A stretch of DNA of 64,000 nt from Desulfuromonadales bacterium (GTDB lineage: Bacteria > Desulfobacterota > Desulfuromonadia > Desulfuromonadales > BM103), in contig JACZKE010000060.1 of the NCBI GenBank assembly GCA_014860225.1, positions 62,001 through 126,000 on the forward strand, read 5' to 3'. Below are positions 3,572-36,854 of the stretch, one piece after another. A program made the position numbers and the translations under genes. The first letter of the stretch is position 1. Every line of letters starts with the position of its first letter. Below the pieces are notes generated by a model that worked only from the letters and a program-made list of their open reading frames with translations, searched no databases and was not told where the DNA came from.

Positions 3572-4896
3572 GATAGTTGCTTCCTACGGTCAATGAGATA
3601 GTTGCTGTTCTTGAGCTGTTTCAGATGCCCTTTCATCCTTGCACAATTGTGGCTGATGGTCAAAAGGGAAGGATGTTCCAGATTTTCGGAGAGTGTGATG
3701 GCAATGGACATGGTCAGTAGCGGAAAGGTGCGCTTGATGCCATACCGGTCAGTGCCGAGAATGAAACCTGCCTTCAGGTCTTTTTCATCGTAAAGTTCCG
3801 GGACGTGACGGTCGAAGGTGCTGATGATGGCTTTCGCGATCTCTTCGGCGCGATACGGTTCCGTCAGGACCACATAATCGTCTCCACCGATATGGCCGAC
3901 CAGATCTTCCTTGCCGCCGTGCCGTTCAACGACCTCCTGAATCAGATTGCCGACGATGTTGATTGCATCGCTGCCGGTCTTGTAGCCGTAGTGGTCGCCG
4001 TAAGCCTTGAAATTGTCCAGGTCGATATACAGGTGGGCGAATGGCAGTTTCTGTGCGATGCGCTGTTCCAGTTCACGATCAATCGCCAGGTTCCCGGGCA
4101 GACGGGTCAAGGGATTGGCATCCAGGTGCAGTTGCTCCAGCTCCATGAGCTTATGCGCCATACTGGCAAAGTCCCGGGCAAGTTGACCGAACTCGTCATT
4201 GCTGCGGATATCAATCCGGGTTTCGAAGTCCCCGGCAGCAATGTCCCGTGTGGCTTTTTGCAGAGCATTGACCGAGCCGTGAATACTGGCGATCACGGTG
4301 AGGGCAACGGGAGCCGAGAGGATGATGCCGATGAGGCTGATGATCAGAGTCAGCCGGTAGGCCTTATTGCTCTGCTGCGACAGCTCGTACAGGCCTTTGT
4401 CCAAAGCGGACTGATGCTGTGCCCTGAGGTCGGCCAGCTCTGCAAAGAGCCGACTGCGCAGCGGTGCTGTCGTAGTCGAGGCCATGGCCGCGGCCCGATC
4501 CCAGTCGCCCTCGGCAAAGATTTGAATGAGGAGACGGGTCTGTGACGTGTATTCATCAATTCTGGCGGGCAGGGACATGAAGTAGACGGGCAGAGGAAAT
4601 GTTTTGACGTCAGCGAACAGATTGTCGAGATCTGCGGCGCGCCGTTCGAGCAAGCCAAGCAACTGTGGATCGCGCAGGATGACCAGTTGCTTTTCCAGGT
4701 TCTCCTGGCCCAACAGGTTCTGCCTCATGTCCCGCAGCAGGGTAAAGACCTGGAACTGGCCTCCCACCAGTTGCTCGGTACGGCGATTATGGTCATGCAG
4801 GCTGATCAGGGCATAACCGAGAGCAAGCATGCTGAACGTGATTATTACCAGATAACCAAGGGCGACTTTCCTGGTTACCGTGAAATAGGACCCCAT
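3568..4896 (-). CDS. Membrane HAMP-GGDEF protein with GGDDY active-site variant
   Basis: A 442-residue inner-membrane protein: one membrane helix near residues 10-30, an extracytoplasmic helical region, a second helix near 175-200, a HAMP segment to about 255, then a GGDEF domain. The signature reads G337-G338-D339-D340-Y341 rather than GG(D/E)EF. The fourth position normally supplies the catalytic and metal-contacting glutamate, so cyclic di-GMP synthesis is possible but uncertain. The periplasmic part looks like a four-helix-bundle sensor. AGGAGC precedes the ATG. It is coupled by a 4-base overlap to the downstream repeat lipoprotein, a likely partner or signal input. Confidence 0.85.
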   Translation of the reverse strand: MGSYFTVTRKVALGYLVIITFSMLALGYALISLHDHNRRTEQLVGGQFQVFTLLRDMRQNLLGQENLEKQLVILRDPQLLGLLERRAADLDNLFADVKTFPLPVYFMSLPARIDEYTSQTRLLIQIFAEGDWDRAAAMASTTTAPLRSRLFAELADLRAQHQSALDKGLYELSQQSNKAYRLTLIISLIGIILSAPVALTVIASIHGSVNALQKATRDIAAGDFETRIDIRSNDEFGQLARDFASMAHKLMELEQLHLDANPLTRLPGNLAIDRELEQRIAQKLPFAHLYIDLDNFKAYGDHYGYKTGSDAINIVGNLIQEVVERHGGKEDLVGHIGGDDYVVLTEPYRAEEIAKAIISTFDRHVPELYDEKDLKAGFILGTDRYGIKRTFPLLTMSIAITLSENLEHPSLLTISHNCARMKGHLKQLKNSNYLIDRRKQLS

Positions 4897-5035
4897 TTCT
4901 GCTCCTGTTCATGGAATCAGTCTCGATTCACGAATCGTTTATATCTACCATACTCTGACCGGAGTGATAAGCCTCATATGTCAGGATTGTCGGTCAGAGG
5001 CTGTCGTCAGCTCTTCTTGGTGCTATAATTAAAAA

Positions 5036-7099
5036 ATGTTGCGGATTATGATCCTCATATTGCTTCTGTGGCCGTTGGGAATCGTTCCTGTGATGGCTGC
5101 TGCGAATGGTCTGATCGACCAGAGACTGTCCATCCAACTCTTCCCGGAAGAACATCGACTGGAAGGGCGAGCGGTTTTGACTCCTGCTGACAGTAACTCC
5201 GAACTGCCGGAAATGTTTCGCCTGGCGGTCGGGGCCGATATCGATGCGGTGACTACCGACGGCAAGCCGACGGACTTCACATTTGACAAAGGGCTCCTGC
5301 AGATACCGCCGGGGAGTGAAGTCTCCAATCTGACCATCTCTTACCGGGTTCGTTTCGATGACCCCGTACCGCAGGATTTTGTAGGCATTGAGGACCCATC
5401 CTTTGGTATTGCGGCAACGATTATGCCTCAAGGCAGCTTCCTTTCCGATAATTCCGGCTGGCATCCGCTGCCGGTCGACAGGCAAAGTCGTTTCCACGTG
5501 ACGATTATCGGACCGCCAGGTCTGTACGGAGTCACCGCCGGCCGCCTGGTCGAGCTTGATTCCAGCGCGACACGCTCACAAACGATCTGGCAGACGCGGC
5601 TGCCTCAGTCCAGTCTGGCCCTGGCTGCGGGCTACTATCAAGTCAAACGGGAGGATCTTGGCGAGATACAACTCCTGGCCTTTACCAGTGTGGAGAATGC
5701 CGCCCTTGCAGCGGACTACCTGGAATCGTGCCGTGAATACATGCAGCTCTACCAGGCATTGTTCGGACCCTATCCTTACGCCAAGTTCGCCGTAGTGGAG
5801 AACTTCTACCCCACAGGCTACGGTCTTCCCGGCTGGACCCTGCTCGGTAGCAGCGTGATCAGACTGCCGTTTATCCGCACCACCAGCCTGCCTCATGAGA
5901 TTGCCCACGCCTGGTGGGGTAATGCGATCGAGATCGATTATCAATCGGGCAACTGGGGCGAAGGGTTGGCCACTTATGTCGCTGACTACTACCTGCAAGA
6001 ACTGTATGCACCTGCAGAGGCGTTCGAGTATCGACGCAAGATCCTGCGTGACTATGCGACCCTGGTTGAAGCCGGTGACGACCTGCCGTTGACTGATTTT
6101 CGCAGCCGAATGACAAAGCGCGATCAGGCGGTCGGCTACGGCAAGGCGGCCATGGTCTTTCACATGCTGCGCAAGCTGATCGGCGATGAAGCTTTTTGGC
6201 AAGGTCTGCAGGCCACGGCGCGTGACGGCCTTGGCAAGCACTTCGCCTGGAGCGATTTGCGGCGGCACTTCGAGGCCGCATCCGCTATGGATCTCTCGGT
6301 ATTCTTCCGTCAATGGACCCGAAGGGCCGGCGCCCCGCAACTACGATTGGCGGATGTCAGTGTCATACCTGTCGATGCCGGTTGGCAGGTTTCCGGTAGC
6401 ATCCTCCAGGAAGAGCCTGTCTACGACCTTGCTGTGCCGTTGCGACTGGAAACCGCAACACACAAGCATGATCAGACCTTTGACCTTGCCGGAAGCCAAA
6501 AACCCTTTGTCTTCACAGTCAACGCTCGGCCGATCAGCCTCACCGTTGATCCCGAGAGCAACCTGTTCCGCAAACTCTACCCTGAGGAACTGCCGGCAAC
6601 GGTGAATAACCTGCGTGCATCAAAGGCGCCTCTGGTCGTTGTCTCGACCGGGTCCGAGGCATTACTCGGAGCCTCCCGCGATCTGCTGCGTGGTCTGCAA
6701 TGGCACCAGGCTCCGGTGATGAGCGAAGAAGATTACCTCCGCCAACAACCTCCCGGCAGAGACCTGCTCATGCTTGGCTGGCCCAAAAGCCTGGACTTGC
6801 GGCCTATACTGCCTGCCGGCTTCACTGCTGCGGCAAATCAGTTTTCGATCGGTGACAAGACGTATGCAGAAGCACAAGATGTTTTGTTCATGGTCATGGC
6901 CAGCCATGAAGATCATCATGTCACGGGATATTTTCTGCCCGGCTCGCTTGCAGCATCCCGGGACACGGCCCGCCGCATCCCTCACTACGGCCGCTATAGC
7001 TATCTGGTTTTTCGTGTCGGCAGCAATCAGGTCAAGGCGACCTGGGAAACAGAACATTCGCCACTGAAGATTCTTTTCGAAAAGGAACCTATTCCATGA
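5036..7099 (+). CDS. Exported M1-like zinc metallopeptidase
   Basis: A 687-residue protein with a signal peptide (hydrophobic residues 3-20, then A-A-A). The zinc site H287-E-I-A-H291 is followed by A-W-W-G-N and, 17 residues after the second histidine, by the glutamate of G-E-G-L-A-T-Y, close to the M1 pattern HExxH-X18-E. The GAMEN exopeptidase motif of classical M1 aminopeptidases is not seen; the equivalent place reads T-G-Y-G-L-P-G-W-T-L-L-G. Aminopeptidase activity is therefore unproven. An N-terminal beta-sandwich and a C-terminal extension flank the catalytic domain. It is coupled to the ChaN-like gene by an ATGA overlap. TATAAT at 5024-5029 lies only 6 bases before this ATG, so a leaderless mRNA or a start at 5048 is possible. 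Confidence 0.85.
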   Translation: MLRIMILILLLWPLGIVPVMAAANGLIDQRLSIQLFPEEHRLEGRAVLTPADSNSELPEMFRLAVGADIDAVTTDGKPTDFTFDKGLLQIPPGSEVSNLTISYRVRFDDPVPQDFVGIEDPSFGIAATIMPQGSFLSDNSGWHPLPVDRQSRFHVTIIGPPGLYGVTAGRLVELDSSATRSQTIWQTRLPQSSLALAAGYYQVKREDLGEIQLLAFTSVENAALAADYLESCREYMQLYQALFGPYPYAKFAVVENFYPTGYGLPGWTLLGSSVIRLPFIRTTSLPHEIAHAWWGNAIEIDYQSGNWGEGLATYVADYYLQELYAPAEAFEYRRKILRDYATLVEAGDDLPLTDFRSRMTKRDQAVGYGKAAMVFHMLRKLIGDEAFWQGLQATARDGLGKHFAWSDLRRHFEAASAMDLSVFFRQWTRRAGAPQLRLADVSVIPVDAGWQVSGSILQEEPVYDLAVPLRLETATHKHDQTFDLAGSQKPFVFTVNARPISLTVDPESNLFRKLYPEELPATVNNLRASKAPLVVVSTGSEALLGASRDLLRGLQWHQAPVMSEEDYLRQQPPGRDLLMLGWPKSLDLRPILPAGFTAAANQFSIGDKTYAEAQDVLFMVMASHEDHHVTGYFLPGSLAASRDTARRIPHYGRYSYLVFRVGSNQVKATWETEHSPLKILFEKEPIP

Positions 7100-7968
7100 A
7101 CTCCATGCGCCTGCTGATCCTGCTGTCACTTGTCGCCGGTTTCACCCTGTCGTCCTCGACAAAGATCCTGGCTCACCCGCATATCTTCGACGTCGCAGCG
7201 GAGACTGAGGTCTCCCCGGATGATCTGCTCGATGACCTGCGACGCGTACAGGTCATCTTTTTGGGAGAATTCCATGATCATGTCGGTCATCACAGCGCCC
7301 AGCTGAGCATCATCGATGCCCTCGACGATGATGAACGACCGCTGGCAATCGGACTCGAAATGTTCCGCAAGGAAAGCCAGGAGGCCCTCGACCGCTGGAC
7401 CGGCAAGGATATGCCTTTGCTGGAATTTCTGATGGTCTACAACGACAATTGGAGCATGTGGGAGGCGTACCGGGAGATTTTCATCCACGCCCGCAACGAG
7501 GGAGTGAAGATGATCGGACTCAACATCCCGCGCAGTATTACCAGAAAGGTGGCACGCAACGGATTTCAGTCGCTTCCCGAAGAAGATCGAAAGGCGCTCG
7601 GCAATGTCGAGTGCCAGGTCAATCCGTTTTACAGCAATTATATCCGCCGGGCGATGGGCGGCTATGGCGGTCACGGCGACCAGTACCTCTATTTCTGCGA
7701 GGCTCAGCTGCTCTGGGATACCATGATGGCGCGCAACCTGGTCGCGTTCCTGCGGGAGAATCCGGACTACCGGGTGGTGGTTCTGGCCGGTAGCGGCCAT
7801 GCCTGGAAATTTGGTATACCCAGGCAGATGCTTGAGGAAGCGAAGATCAGTTACCGGGTACTGCTACCGGAATATTTTTCTCGCGTCGATCGAAGTAATG
7901 TGAATGTTGAGATCACCGACTACCTGTGGTTGGACGTAGGTGTGGATGGCTGGACGTTCTCAAACTAG
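7096..7968 (+). CDS. ChaN family (DUF399) heme-binding-like exported protein
   Basis: A 290-residue protein with a signal peptide over residues 1-26 but no lipobox cysteine, unlike lipoproteins of the family. Conserved blocks are L-G-E-F-H-D-H near residue 56, G-L-E-M-F near 84 and A-G-S-G-H-A-W near 231, typical of the ChaN/DUF399 family, whose Campylobacter member ChaN binds heme at the cell surface. Heme or iron handling is therefore an inference from family. The gene overlaps the M1-like peptidase gene by 4 bases and is cotranscribed with it. Its stop codon TAG (7966-7968) lies inside the first copy of a 90-bp repeat, so the C-terminus may have been altered by repeat insertion. Confidence 0.85.
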   Translation: MNSMRLLILLSLVAGFTLSSSTKILAHPHIFDVAAETEVSPDDLLDDLRRVQVIFLGEFHDHVGHHSAQLSIIDALDDDERPLAIGLEMFRKESQEALDRWTGKDMPLLEFLMVYNDNWSMWEAYREIFIHARNEGVKMIGLNIPRSITRKVARNGFQSLPEEDRKALGNVECQVNPFYSNYIRRAMGGYGGHGDQYLYFCEAQLLWDTMMARNLVAFLRENPDYRVVVLAGSGHAWKFGIPRQMLEEAKISYRVLLPEYFSRVDRSNVNVEITDYLWLDVGVDGWTFSN

Positions 7969-32480: not shown

Positions 32481-34193
32481 CTAACATGCCACTCCCTTGC
32501 TGTAATGATATTCCTCGACCCGCATCTTCTGCCCGGCTGCAGTCAGATAGCAAAAGAGATAAACCGTGCGTTGCGCTGAGCTGTGCATGGTTGTGAAGAT
32601 GGTCGCAAAATACTGCAGTTTGATCCCCATTCCCTTAATCTCCGCAGTCTTGTCCTGAACCGTAGTCTGTACCCATTGCTGTTCTGCTGATGTGAGTCCG
32701 GTGTCGAAAAACACCGGAATGCGATTGGTGACGATGCGCTCACAGCGGGCGTAGTCGCAGGCAAGGCTTTCCACCAGGCGCACATGCGATAAATCCTTTT
32801 CGCGTTCCTGGATGATGTCGAACAGGTGCTCGAAGATCGCTTGGCGGCTCAAAGGGAAACGGAACAAGTCACGCTTGCGCCATTCACGCGCCAACCAGGC
32901 AAGCCCTGTGGCAAGGGAGTCGGTTGCTGCACATAATTCTTTCAGGAAGGCTTGAAAACAACCGCTGTTGTATGTCAGGTCGATCAGGCGGCTGATCTCC
33001 TGGAGCTGCTGCAGCTCTGCAAAAGACAACTCCCGGCTGGCCAGAACCGTGTAAGGCGGGTTCGGGTCATGACGTATCTGCAACGCTGCCGCCTGATCGC
33101 GCAGAGGTGAACCCGGCAACAGCTTGACCGGTTCAATCTGCAGGTGGTGCGGGGCGAGGGCGGCAACCCGGTCGATCGATGCGAGGAAGCTGTCATAGTC
33201 ATCGCCGGGCAGGCCGGCAACCAGGTCGAGATGCAGGTTGATGCGCCCACTTTTGCGCAGGTGACGCACATTTTCTTCGAGCTTTGTCAGGTTGACCCTG
33301 CGACCTATGGTGTCGAGGGTGCTTTCCAGTGTGGATTGCACGCCGATTTCAAACTGGAAAGTGTTTTCCGGAACCGTATCAAGAAGCTTCAGGGTCGCTT
33401 CGTCTAGCAAATGGGCCGCAATCTCGAAGTGGAAATGTGTTGACTGGTTATGCTCCAGGATGAAGCGGAAAATATCCCTGGCACGACTGGCATCGAAGTT
33501 GAAAGTGCGATCGACCAGTTTGACCTTGGGGATCTTGTTCTGCATCAAAAAGAGCAGGTCGGCATAGATCCTCGTCATCGAATAAGTACGCATCTGGTTG
33601 TCGCGGGCACTCAGGCAGAAGCTGCAGTGGAATGGACAGCCACGACTGGTTTCGTAGTACACAAAGCCACGCTCGAGATCGGTCAAGCCAGCCTGGAAAG
33701 GTGAGGGGATGCGATCCAGATCAGCCAGAGGAGGGCTATTCGGACCGCTGATGAGCTCTTTCTCCTTGCGCAGGACAGTGCGCGGGATCACACCCGGTTG
33801 CTGCTGCTGATACCAGGCAAGCAGCAGACTGCGCAAAGGTTCTTCTCCTTCGCCCCGGATCAGCGCCGTAAGGCCGGGGTGGCGAACGAAGAGCTCATCG
33901 TCATCAAAGGACACTTCGGGGCCGCCCAATACAATGTTCAATTCAGGACGGGCAACCGCCAGGGCATCAACCAGGTCCAGGGTCGCACGCCGGTTCCAGA
34001 TGTAGACTGAAAAGGCAATGACATCAGGAGCTTCGGCCAGGAGTAATGAGAGAATCGATTCGCGCGGTTCGTGGACGGTGAATTCACGGATCAGCAATTC
34101 ACCGCACTCGTCGCCACAGTAGGCGGCCAGGCAGGGCAGGGCCAGGCTATTGTGAATGAACTTGCTGTGCAGGGTGGTGAGAATAGTGCGCAT
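32481..34193 (-). CDS. B12-binding radical SAM protein with DUF4080 C-terminal domain
   Basis: A 570-residue iron-sulfur enzyme. Residues 1-140 form a cobalamin-binding Rossmann domain (G-G-P-E-V-S near 90). The radical SAM cluster motif is C186-x3-C190-x2-C193, in S-R-G-C-P-F-H-C-S-F-C. The C-terminal 180 residues look like DUF4080. B12-radical SAM enzymes often methylate unactivated carbons; for this subgroup the substrate is unknown. It lies 149 bases downstream of the selenoprotein gene on the same strand. Confidence 0.88.
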   Translation of the reverse strand: MRTILTTLHSKFIHNSLALPCLAAYCGDECGELLIREFTVHEPRESILSLLLAEAPDVIAFSVYIWNRRATLDLVDALAVARPELNIVLGGPEVSFDDDELFVRHPGLTALIRGEGEEPLRSLLLAWYQQQQPGVIPRTVLRKEKELISGPNSPPLADLDRIPSPFQAGLTDLERGFVYYETSRGCPFHCSFCLSARDNQMRTYSMTRIYADLLFLMQNKIPKVKLVDRTFNFDASRARDIFRFILEHNQSTHFHFEIAAHLLDEATLKLLDTVPENTFQFEIGVQSTLESTLDTIGRRVNLTKLEENVRHLRKSGRINLHLDLVAGLPGDDYDSFLASIDRVAALAPHHLQIEPVKLLPGSPLRDQAAALQIRHDPNPPYTVLASRELSFAELQQLQEISRLIDLTYNSGCFQAFLKELCAATDSLATGLAWLAREWRKRDLFRFPLSRQAIFEHLFDIIQEREKDLSHVRLVESLACDYARCERIVTNRIPVFFDTGLTSAEQQWVQTTVQDKTAEIKGMGIKLQYFATIFTTMHSSAQRTVYLFCYLTAAGQKMRVEEYHYSKGVAC

Positions 34194-34342: not shown

Positions 34343-35185
34343 TCAGCTCTGGTCGCGCGGTACAAAATTATCCGGTTCCACGTATGTACTGTAATCGTGA
34401 CGCCGCCAGCGGAAGGGAAGGTCGATGATTTCACCCGGGGTGGAGATGGTATAGAGGGCTTTCAAGGATTCCAGCACTACGCTGCGTTGCTGCTTGACAT
34501 TTCCCGGCTCGCCCAGCGGGTGGCCGAAAGGCCAGCGCAGGAACACGCTACGTGGCGGCTGCACCTTCTCGGTGAACTCACGCACGATCGATATGCCGAT
34601 GGTGGCGATTCCGGCTTTCTCGATCTCTCTCTGGATCAGCCCCACGGACTGATTACAGATGCCTCAGGCCGGGGTCAGCAGGACGACGTCAACATTGTCC
34701 TGCTTGAGATTCTCGACGACCTGCTTTGCCGTGCGACCGATCAGGGTGGCAATGTGTCTGCCGTCGATATGACCCATAAAGGAATAGTGCGTGTCGGCCA
34801 GTTTGCCGATGAAGCCTTCCTGCTGCAACTCCCGCAGCCGGTCGAGCGGCAGTACGATGTTCAGATCCTTTTCAGCGTCGCTGTGGTCATAGTAGTCATG
34901 GGTAATCCGGTAATCATCGTTGATGGTTGCAGCGTTTATCGCCCGAAAGCTCGGGTCGCCCTCGCTGTCCTGCATGTCGAAGGGGTCCTGTCCGTTGTGG
35001 TGGACACCAGATGTCGTCACCACGGCCAGTTTGCATTCGTTCAGGGGTTTCTTTGCCGGCGTCCAGGGAATCACTTCACCCGATTCCCTGGGCTCATAGG
35101 CGGTGATGAAGCGCTGCGCAAGGCTCGGGTAGCGGGTGATCACCTTGGCGATCAGGCGGTTCTTGATCCGGTTTATCAGTGACAT
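34343..35185 (-). CDS. Selenoprotein of the glycine/sarcosine/betaine reductase B family (GrdB/PrdB-like), UGA = Sec174
   Basis: An in-frame UGA at 34666-34664 separates two parts that together form one 280-residue protein. The UGA lies in L-L-T-P-A-U-G-I-C-N-Q, a U-x-x-C redox motif at the position expected for the family. Both halves are conserved-looking and in the same frame, with no frameshift. A hairpin follows the UGA (see next entry). The start at 35185 has AGGAGAGCTCA just upstream. GrdB-type subunits carry the selenocysteine that attacks the substrate in amino-acid reductases; here no GrdA, GrdC or PrdA partner is adjacent, so a stand-alone or different redox role is likely. Without recoding the gene would be split by standard gene finding. 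Confidence 0.85.
34630..34659 (-). promoter_or_regulatory. Bacterial SECIS hairpin
   Basis: Starting 4 bases after the UGA: TCTG, TA, ATCAG, loop TCCGTGGGG, CTGAT, C, CAGA. TCTG pairs with CAGA and ATCAG with CTGAT, a nine-pair stem with small internal asymmetry. The loop begins 16 bases after the UGA and contains consecutive G residues, matching the usual placement and loop content of bacterial SECIS elements recognised by SelB. Confidence 0.75.
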
Positions 35186-35525
35186 TGAGCTCTCCTGTAA
35201 AATAGTGCCGATACTATAACTTTTTTCGCATCTATTGTCCTGTTTTATCGTGCTCGTCACTCTCGTACAGGAACGTCGCAGCCACAACAAGGATCCTGTT
35301 TTTCAGCCAGCAAGAATCCGGTTTCAGGATGGAAGCCTGACGGAATGCCCTTCTTGTCGACTTTTTGCAAGAGCCGCATTTGAAGGAGAAATTGTTTTCA
35401 ATCAGCTGTATATGGTAGGTTTCAGGAAATGGCTTCCGGGGAGCTGCTCATTATGAAGTATGCAACAGCAGAGGAGCTGCAGGCTGTCTCTCTTTACCTG
35501 ATATTAAACTCAGAGGTACAAAGTC
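35186..35525. other. Intergenic region, no gene recognised
   Basis: 340 bases between two divergent genes. A weak frame at 35235-35456 has no ribosome binding site and no recognisable product. No strong palindrome or RNA is seen. It presumably holds the promoters of the selenoprotein and radical SAM genes. Confidence 0.5.
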
Positions 35526-36854
35526 GTGGGGAAGAACAAAACTATTCTGGCTGTAGTCGCCGACGCGCAGGGTGAAGTTTTCGAGCACCCTGATTTGCTG
35601 CTGGCAGGCATGAACGGTAGTATTGCGGTGAGGCCGCTGGATGCTGAAATGATCCCTATGCCTGAGGGGAGCCGCCTGTTCACCATACCGCAGACACCAC
35701 CGATAGGCTTCGATCGACGCAGCGGTAAGTGCCTGACGGCTGAGCGATTGCCAAAACAGTGGGGGGGAGGTCCGATTCAGGCGGTTTCCGCATTTCTGAC
35801 CCCGGGATTCACACGTACCCTTTTACCTGCTGCTGATTATCAACGCAAAAAGATGACTCTGCCGCTCTGGTCATATACGGCGGTCGGCTGGTGTGTCGAG
35901 GAAGAACGCTTCTACGTAGCCGCAGTTCAGGTCGATCGCAACAGTCAATGGCAACCTGATCACTTCGACGACCGCAAACTCGATCCCCTGGTGCGGAAAG
36001 CGTTGCAGGTCAACCCGGAGAATCGCTTGTTGGAGCAACTGTCACGCTGCGCACTCGATTATCACTGCTTTGCGGCCAAGAACCTTTTCTTCCGGCGCTG
36101 GGAGGCTCCTTTGCCGACCTCCCCCACCTGCAACTCCCGCTGTGTCGGCTGCATCTCCAAGCAGGAATCGGACTGTTGCCCGTCCAGCCAGGAACGTTTG
36201 ACCTTCGTGCCGACGGTCAAAGAGCTCTGTGAGGTGGCCGTGCCGCATCTGCAAGAGGCGGAGAACGCAATTGTTTCCTTTGGCCAGGGCTGTGAAGGTG
36301 ATCCGATCCTCCAGGCAGATGTTATCAGCGAGGCAGTCACGGAGATGCGCCGTCAGACGGAACGCGGCACAATTAACTTCAATAGCAATGCATCCCTCCC
36401 TGATGCCATCGACAAGCTGGCTGCTGCCGGCATCGAATCGATCCGTGTTTCGCTCAACTCGGCCCAGGAAACTCTTTACAACTCTTATTACCGGCCATGC
36501 GGCTACCGTTTTGCCGATGTCGTCGAATCACTGAAGCGTGCCAAGGCTGCCGGTCTTTATACCATGCTCAACTACCTGGTTTTTCCCGGGGTCAGTGACC
36601 GGCCCGATGAAATTGAGGCCTTGGCTGGCCTGGTCGAGCAGGTCGGCGTTGATATGATCCAGATGCGCAACCTGAGCCTCGATCCGGTTCTCTACCTGTC
36701 CTCGCTGGGTGTCTCCGGCTGCGGCATCGGCATGCTGGAGATGCTCACACAGCACAAACGGCGCTTCCCTAAGCTGCAGTACGGATATTTCAATCGGACC
36801 CGTGACAGCTTTTTCCCGCCCGGTTACGAGTCTGGGTGGCCAATTCACTCTTAA
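35526..36854 (+). CDS. Radical SAM protein, function unknown
   Basis: A 442-residue protein with cluster motif C202-x3-C206-x2-C209 (C-N-S-R-C-V-G-C) placed unusually late, after a 190-residue N-terminal domain. The radical SAM barrel follows: S-F-G-Q-G-C-E-G-D-P near residue 258 is the glycine-rich SAM contact, and I-R-V-S-L-N-S-A-Q-E follows. Family not identified. The start is GTG, with AGAGG about 9 bases upstream. It is divergent from the selenoprotein gene. Confidence 0.8.
   Translation: MGKNKTILAVVADAQGEVFEHPDLLLAGMNGSIAVRPLDAEMIPMPEGSRLFTIPQTPPIGFDRRSGKCLTAERLPKQWGGGPIQAVSAFLTPGFTRTLLPAADYQRKKMTLPLWSYTAVGWCVEEERFYVAAVQVDRNSQWQPDHFDDRKLDPLVRKALQVNPENRLLEQLSRCALDYHCFAAKNLFFRRWEAPLPTSPTCNSRCVGCISKQESDCCPSSQERLTFVPTVKELCEVAVPHLQEAENAIVSFGQGCEGDPILQADVISEAVTEMRRQTERGTINFNSNASLPDAIDKLAAAGIESIRVSLNSAQETLYNSYYRPCGYRFADVVESLKRAKAAGLYTMLNYLVFPGVSDRPDEIEALAGLVEQVGVDMIQMRNLSLDPVLYLSSLGVSGCGIGMLEMLTQHKRRFPKLQYGYFNRTRDSFFPPGYESGWPIHS

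Follow-up and report, generated by a model that had tools for sequence, protein, structure and literature searches.

A probable stand-alone selenoprotein of the GrdB/PrdB superfamily, encoded through an in-frame UGA in a Desulfuromonadales genome

The gene at positions 34343–35185 (minus strand, 280 codons plus a TGA stop) of the window (the whole stretch of 64,000 nucleotides that was analysed) appears to encode a true selenoprotein of 280 residues with selenocysteine at position 174, in which the module that bears the selenol in the glycine/proline reductase superfamily would work alone, i.e., with no pyruvoyl partner (estimated probability ca. 0.82, judged from sequence). A selenol–thiol reductase built on Sec174 and Cys177 and lacking the pyruvoyl partner is the most likely function of this stand-alone protein.

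The reading frame ran from ATG (35185–35183) to TGA (34345–34343), both on the minus strand; the terminal UGA was treated as a genuine stop, given that relatives have roughly the same length. A single internal stop was present, TGA at 34666–34664 (residue 174 of 280), in the context VVLLTPA-U-GICNQSVGLIQRE; it forms a UxxC motif with Cys177 and was aligned with the Sec of authentic PrdB and GrdB. Ordinary ORF calling cut the gene in two (35290/35185–34664 and 34645–34343). The original prediction of one frame with an in-frame UGA in a U-x-x-C motif, split by gene calling, was thus borne out, and the minus strand was added to it. An RBS-like sequence, AGGAGAG (35190–35196, minus strand), was read 4 bases 5' of the ATG; a weak sigma-70-like promoter match (AGGACA-17-TATAGT; 35213–35241, minus strand) was a match to the consensus only. 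A plus-strand ORF (34397–35182, 261 aa) was rejected as an antisense shadow, the homology being carried by the minus-strand protein.

Conservation of the UGA was followed in 82 aligned copies, obtained from 80 loci of public genomes together with the window's own copy and covering Desulfuromonadales, other Deltaproteobacteria, Nitrospirota, Wallbacteria, Rokubacteria and others. TGA was found at the Sec codon in 81 of the 82, GGA in one, and TAA or TAG in none; this retention spans more than 40% divergence. The homologues ran on past the UGA with similar protein sequence. Purifying constraint was equal before and after the codon (eight relatives; dN ca. 0.1, dS ca. 0.75 to saturation, dN/dS ca. 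0.1 on both sides), and the conserved look of the sequence on the two sides, noted in the original prediction, was confirmed in this way. Sec174, Cys177, H96, Y99, D100, H101, D107, N109, H139, R186 and R212 were invariant in a 75-sequence alignment, and the sole exception to the UxxC motif was the GGA copy. That homologue (L063:6001–6804) keeps an intact SECIS hairpin, and its GGA would reflect recent loss of Sec or a sequencing error; another locus, L144, appears to be this gene again, taken from a second copy of the collection.

Folding of the 41 nt after the UGA gave ....((((..((((((((...)))))))).)))) as the best structure (−13.5 kcal/mol). The stem begins at base +5 after the UGA, spans 34659–34630 (minus strand) and contains 12 pairs when the innermost are counted, or about nine with a larger G-rich loop, in keeping with the nine-pair stem proposed at the outset. 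Against synonymous-codon shuffles, the fold z-score of the window hairpin was −2.7; for the 42 bases after the UGA the mean over 82 homologues was −2.14, and seven control windows taken from these genes gave −0.41 to +0.16. Compensatory changes were observed at two pairs. Pair 12–28 occurs as T–A and C–G; among 73 distinct sequences, pair 15–25 was always either G–C (61) or A–T (12). The swaps at pair 15–25 involve a third codon base (Gln/Arg) and the first base of Leu, both silent, so that paired synonymous changes (CAG..CTG to CAA..TTG) are seen in the stem. About eight changes of this pair were placed on the tree; the independent pairs on well-supported branches agreed in 4 of 4 cases, a number too small for a formal test. 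Rfam, searched at its gathering thresholds, gave no match to SECIS, and because these thresholds miss the hairpin, its assignment as a bacterial SECIS element is based on folding and covariation.

All four sel genes were located in the window's genome: selA, selB and selD stand consecutively on contig 41 (C41:5788–10103), and selC, the tRNA-Sec gene, has the anticodon TCA. The selD gene itself (C41:9180–10103) contains one in-frame TGA, and SelD of this genome is probably a selenoprotein as well. Decoding of the UGA at 34666–34664 as selenocysteine is strongly supported, because TGA conservation, constraint on both sides, excess of folding, covariation in the stem and the presence of the sel genes with tRNA-Sec all point to translation through it, as the original prediction had proposed.

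D-Proline and glycine reductases depend on a subunit that carries a pyruvoyl group and is derived from PrdA or GrdE. The model for these proteins, PF09338, gave no match in the window's genome or in the six other members of the order that carry the gene in a sample of 395 genomes of the phylum; the model does detect PrdA (positive control) and matched 17 of the 395. All 17 were among the 99 genomes with a match to the PrdB model, and the remaining 82 of the 99 were without the subunit. The PrdA model TIGR04480 likewise gave no match in the window's genome and nine gene-carrying relatives, and a control Terrisporobacter plasmid was matched. No match to GrdA (PF04723) was obtained, in a search that had no positive control to match. 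The suggestion of a role other than glycine or proline reduction was supported by the controlled searches for PrdA and GrdE. Since a pyruvoyl-bearing PrdA/GrdE subunit is missing, the known mechanism of the amino-acid reductases would not be possible, and the name PrdB is probably wrong because the essential partner is absent; an analogue of PrdA that has diverged beyond the reach of the models may nevertheless exist.

The following course of events is proposed for the stand-alone protein. SelB with tRNA-Sec would bind the hairpin directly after the UGA and insert Sec at residue 174, giving a 280-residue product in which the superfamily's selenol-bearing module would act alone. The Sec174 selenolate would attack an oxidised or electrophilic substrate directly, with Cys177 resolving the adduct to a selenenylsulfide; regeneration of the enzyme would fall to a thioredoxin-like dithiol or another donor. 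Direct action on the substrate is suggested because Sec and the resolving Cys are kept and the pyruvoyl partner is not. In D-proline reductase, the PrdB selenolate is proposed to attack the substrate held on the pyruvoyl group of PrdA, and a PrdB cysteine to resolve the adduct (PMC3091704). The substrate of the window protein is more likely to be a peroxide-, sulfane-sulfur- or soft-metal-related compound than an amino acid. GrdB itself reportedly has peroxidase activity, to go by the title of a 2007 paper cited in PMC3091704.

The gene is flanked downstream, after a gap of 149 bases, by a B12-binding radical SAM protein with DUF4080 (32481–34193, minus strand) and on the other side by a divergent radical SAM protein (35526–36854, plus strand). 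The presence of two flanking radical SAM genes, pointed out in the original prediction, was confirmed; as a hint to function it proved weak. They are conserved neighbours only within the same bacterial family, distant relatives having other neighbours, and because synteny is limited in this way little weight is given to them as partners. Close relatives have a divergent radical SAM gene, the rhodanese gene, the selenoprotein gene and the B12-binding radical SAM gene with DUF4080, in that order. The rhodanese gene is missing upstream of the window gene (35186–35525, compared with L019 and L022–L025) and in L018 too. Other recurrent upstream neighbours are found in a groundwater clade, in which a copper-type P-ATPase and a small cytochrome c stand directly upstream, often with a 4-base overlap. 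Taken together, the recurrent upstream neighbours hint loosely at sulfur or soft-metal redox chemistry; the substrate cannot be firmly inferred from them, because they vary between clades and the window gene has no rhodanese neighbour.

Two narrower readings are based on these neighbours. According to the first, the protein would be a selenol enzyme that acts specifically in sulfane-sulfur or selenium/tellurium metabolism, together with a periplasmic rhodanese (ExtH-like or mercaptopyruvate sulfurtransferase-like) encoded in the same operon in relatives. The rhodanese gene stands directly upstream in some 15 loci of the Desulfuromonadales-type set, in several of them at a distance of 12 bases or less or overlapping; its best NCBIfam matches, both below cut-off, are 3-mercaptopyruvate sulfurtransferase and ExtH, the latter of selenite/tellurite reduction operons. 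This reading is nevertheless doubtful for the window gene: no rhodanese adjoins it or its counterpart in L018, the only relative of the rhodanese in the window's genome lies elsewhere and is 30% identical, and the other clade has the ATPase and cytochrome c instead. Moreover, the relatives' rhodanese, which has two domains, begins with a signal-like N-terminus that the selenoprotein lacks, so that the two may belong to different compartments. According to the second reading, distinctly unlikely in our estimate, the protein would serve heavy-metal (copper-type) homeostasis as a redox enzyme linked to P-type ATPases, as the upstream genes of the groundwater clade would suggest; neither the window gene nor its close relatives showed such neighbours, and their operon membership could be peculiar to one clade.

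The joined 280-residue protein was compared with the GrdB family, as had been recommended, and a GrdB/PrdB match over its whole length was obtained. Scores (bits, with cut-off): PF07355, 66.2 (22) and TIGR01918, 83.8 (65.45), both above; TIGR01917 (GrdB), 76.2 (602.2), over profile positions 198–422 of 431 only; TIGR04483 (PrdB), 184.9 (300). The last is the best curated model and covers the whole length across the UGA; the part after the UGA alone also matches it. Authentic PrdB of Terrisporobacter, encoded beside PrdA, gave 424.7 bits on the same model, and the cut-off was reached by none of the 395 phylum genomes, 99 of which have a match below it. On these profile scores the window protein is assigned to the GrdB/PrdB superfamily, and it is classed as not a PrdB equivalog because 184.9 bits compare with a cut-off of 300 and with 424.7 bits for authentic PrdB.

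That it is nonetheless the PrdB subunit of a D-proline reductase, as surveys named such proteins, with a partner that went unrecognised, is highly improbable. The whole-length match to PrdB as best curated model, the 35–39% identity to authentic PrdB and the "proline reductase" label that related deltaproteobacterial proteins carry in the available text of one survey (PMC1794560) speak for it; the score below the cut-off, which none of the 395 phylum genomes reaches, the absence of PrdA in a search whose positive control was matched, and the replacement of SHGGYDN and MGGGG of PrdB by THDYYDH and MGHIDG speak against it. The chance that the UGA is a real stop, with the locus being either two genes, as the split by an ordinary gene caller would have it, or a degenerated pseudogene, is virtually nil in view of UGA in 81 of 82 copies at over 40% divergence (never TAA or TAG), two-sided constraint, SECIS covariation and complete sel machinery.

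When the tree was rooted on GrdB, two sides emerged (support 92/79 and 91/92), one of PrdB and one of stand-alone proteins; on this topology the stand-alone proteins are placed as the sister group of PrdB, with signature residues of their own. A second clade, with the motif UPVCHQSVG, falls on the stand-alone side; its members (L156–L163 and L165, from other members of the phylum) read UPVCHQSVGL(V/I)AR, are ca. 40% identical and have TGA at the Sec position. A Nitrospirota contig (L051) contains two nearby selenoprotein paralogues of the superfamily (4308–5165 and 6771–7523), one of which is 39% identical to the window protein. Among the PrdB proteins, that of Peptoclostridium acidaminophilum (L168:4016–4729), encoded on a large plasmid with no adjacent prdA, passes the PrdB cut-off narrowly (310 vs 300 bits). 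In several Terrisporobacter strains prdB is found on small plasmids of 21 kb, and on one Terrisporobacter plasmid (L167:1–2925) it adjoins prdA, i.e., a plasmid-borne D-proline reductase.

The AlphaFold model of the window protein is a confident one (pLDDT 94, pTM 0.92). Structure searches with it gave a best Foldseek E of 0.039 and a best VIA Z of 8.4 (microcystinase C), close to background. These matches were set aside as generic Rossmann-like arrangements at background level, and the missing match is no evidence for a new fold; a sequence search of solved structures gave no real match to the window protein.

Surveys rank "proline reductase PrdB" among the most abundant marine bacterial selenoproteins. 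In their available text, the Sargasso Sea survey (PMC1088965) and the Global Ocean Sampling survey (PMC2398784) list such selenoproteins under this name, and selenoproteins of Anaeromyxobacter and Geobacter uraniireducens are named proline reductase (PMC1794560); within these portions of the three papers the names were given without a PrdA test. Judged by the descriptions (UxxC, pfam07355), the survey proteins are probably of the same stand-alone kind, and the kind of gene found in the window has probably been in selenoprotein lists since 2005 under the proline reductase name. A literature search found no paper treating the stand-alone group on its own, and the missing partner implied by the group's name seems under-appreciated. 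About a quarter of the sampled phylum genomes (99 of 395) have a PrdB-model match, and 82 of these 99 are without the subunit that the known reaction needs. If most survey "PrdB" proteins are stand-alone, the assigned function would be wrong and a common selenium enzyme would be without a known reaction. We would give even odds to the wider proposal that the widespread environmental "PrdB" proteins are separate, partner-free selenol enzymes with an undescribed reaction, possibly involving sulfane sulfur, selenium/tellurium or soft metals.

Compared with the known systems, the window protein resembles PrdB in its 35–39% identity, in the UGA-encoded U-x-x-C at the aligned position and in sharing H96, Y99, D100, D107, N109, M137 and G138. 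It differs in that the window group has ITHDYYDH, MGHIDG and UGICNQS where PrdB has VSHGGYDN, MGGGGN and UGTCHRS, respectively, and adds an N-terminal helix of 20–30 residues and a C-terminal extension containing WRR; its score lies below the PrdB cut-off and its genome is without a PrdA match. With GrdB of the same phylum it aligns along the C-terminal half (27–30% identity), Sec on Sec; it has neither GrdB's N-terminal half nor the second Cys of UxxCxxC, and the GrdE partner of GrdB was not found in the window's genome.
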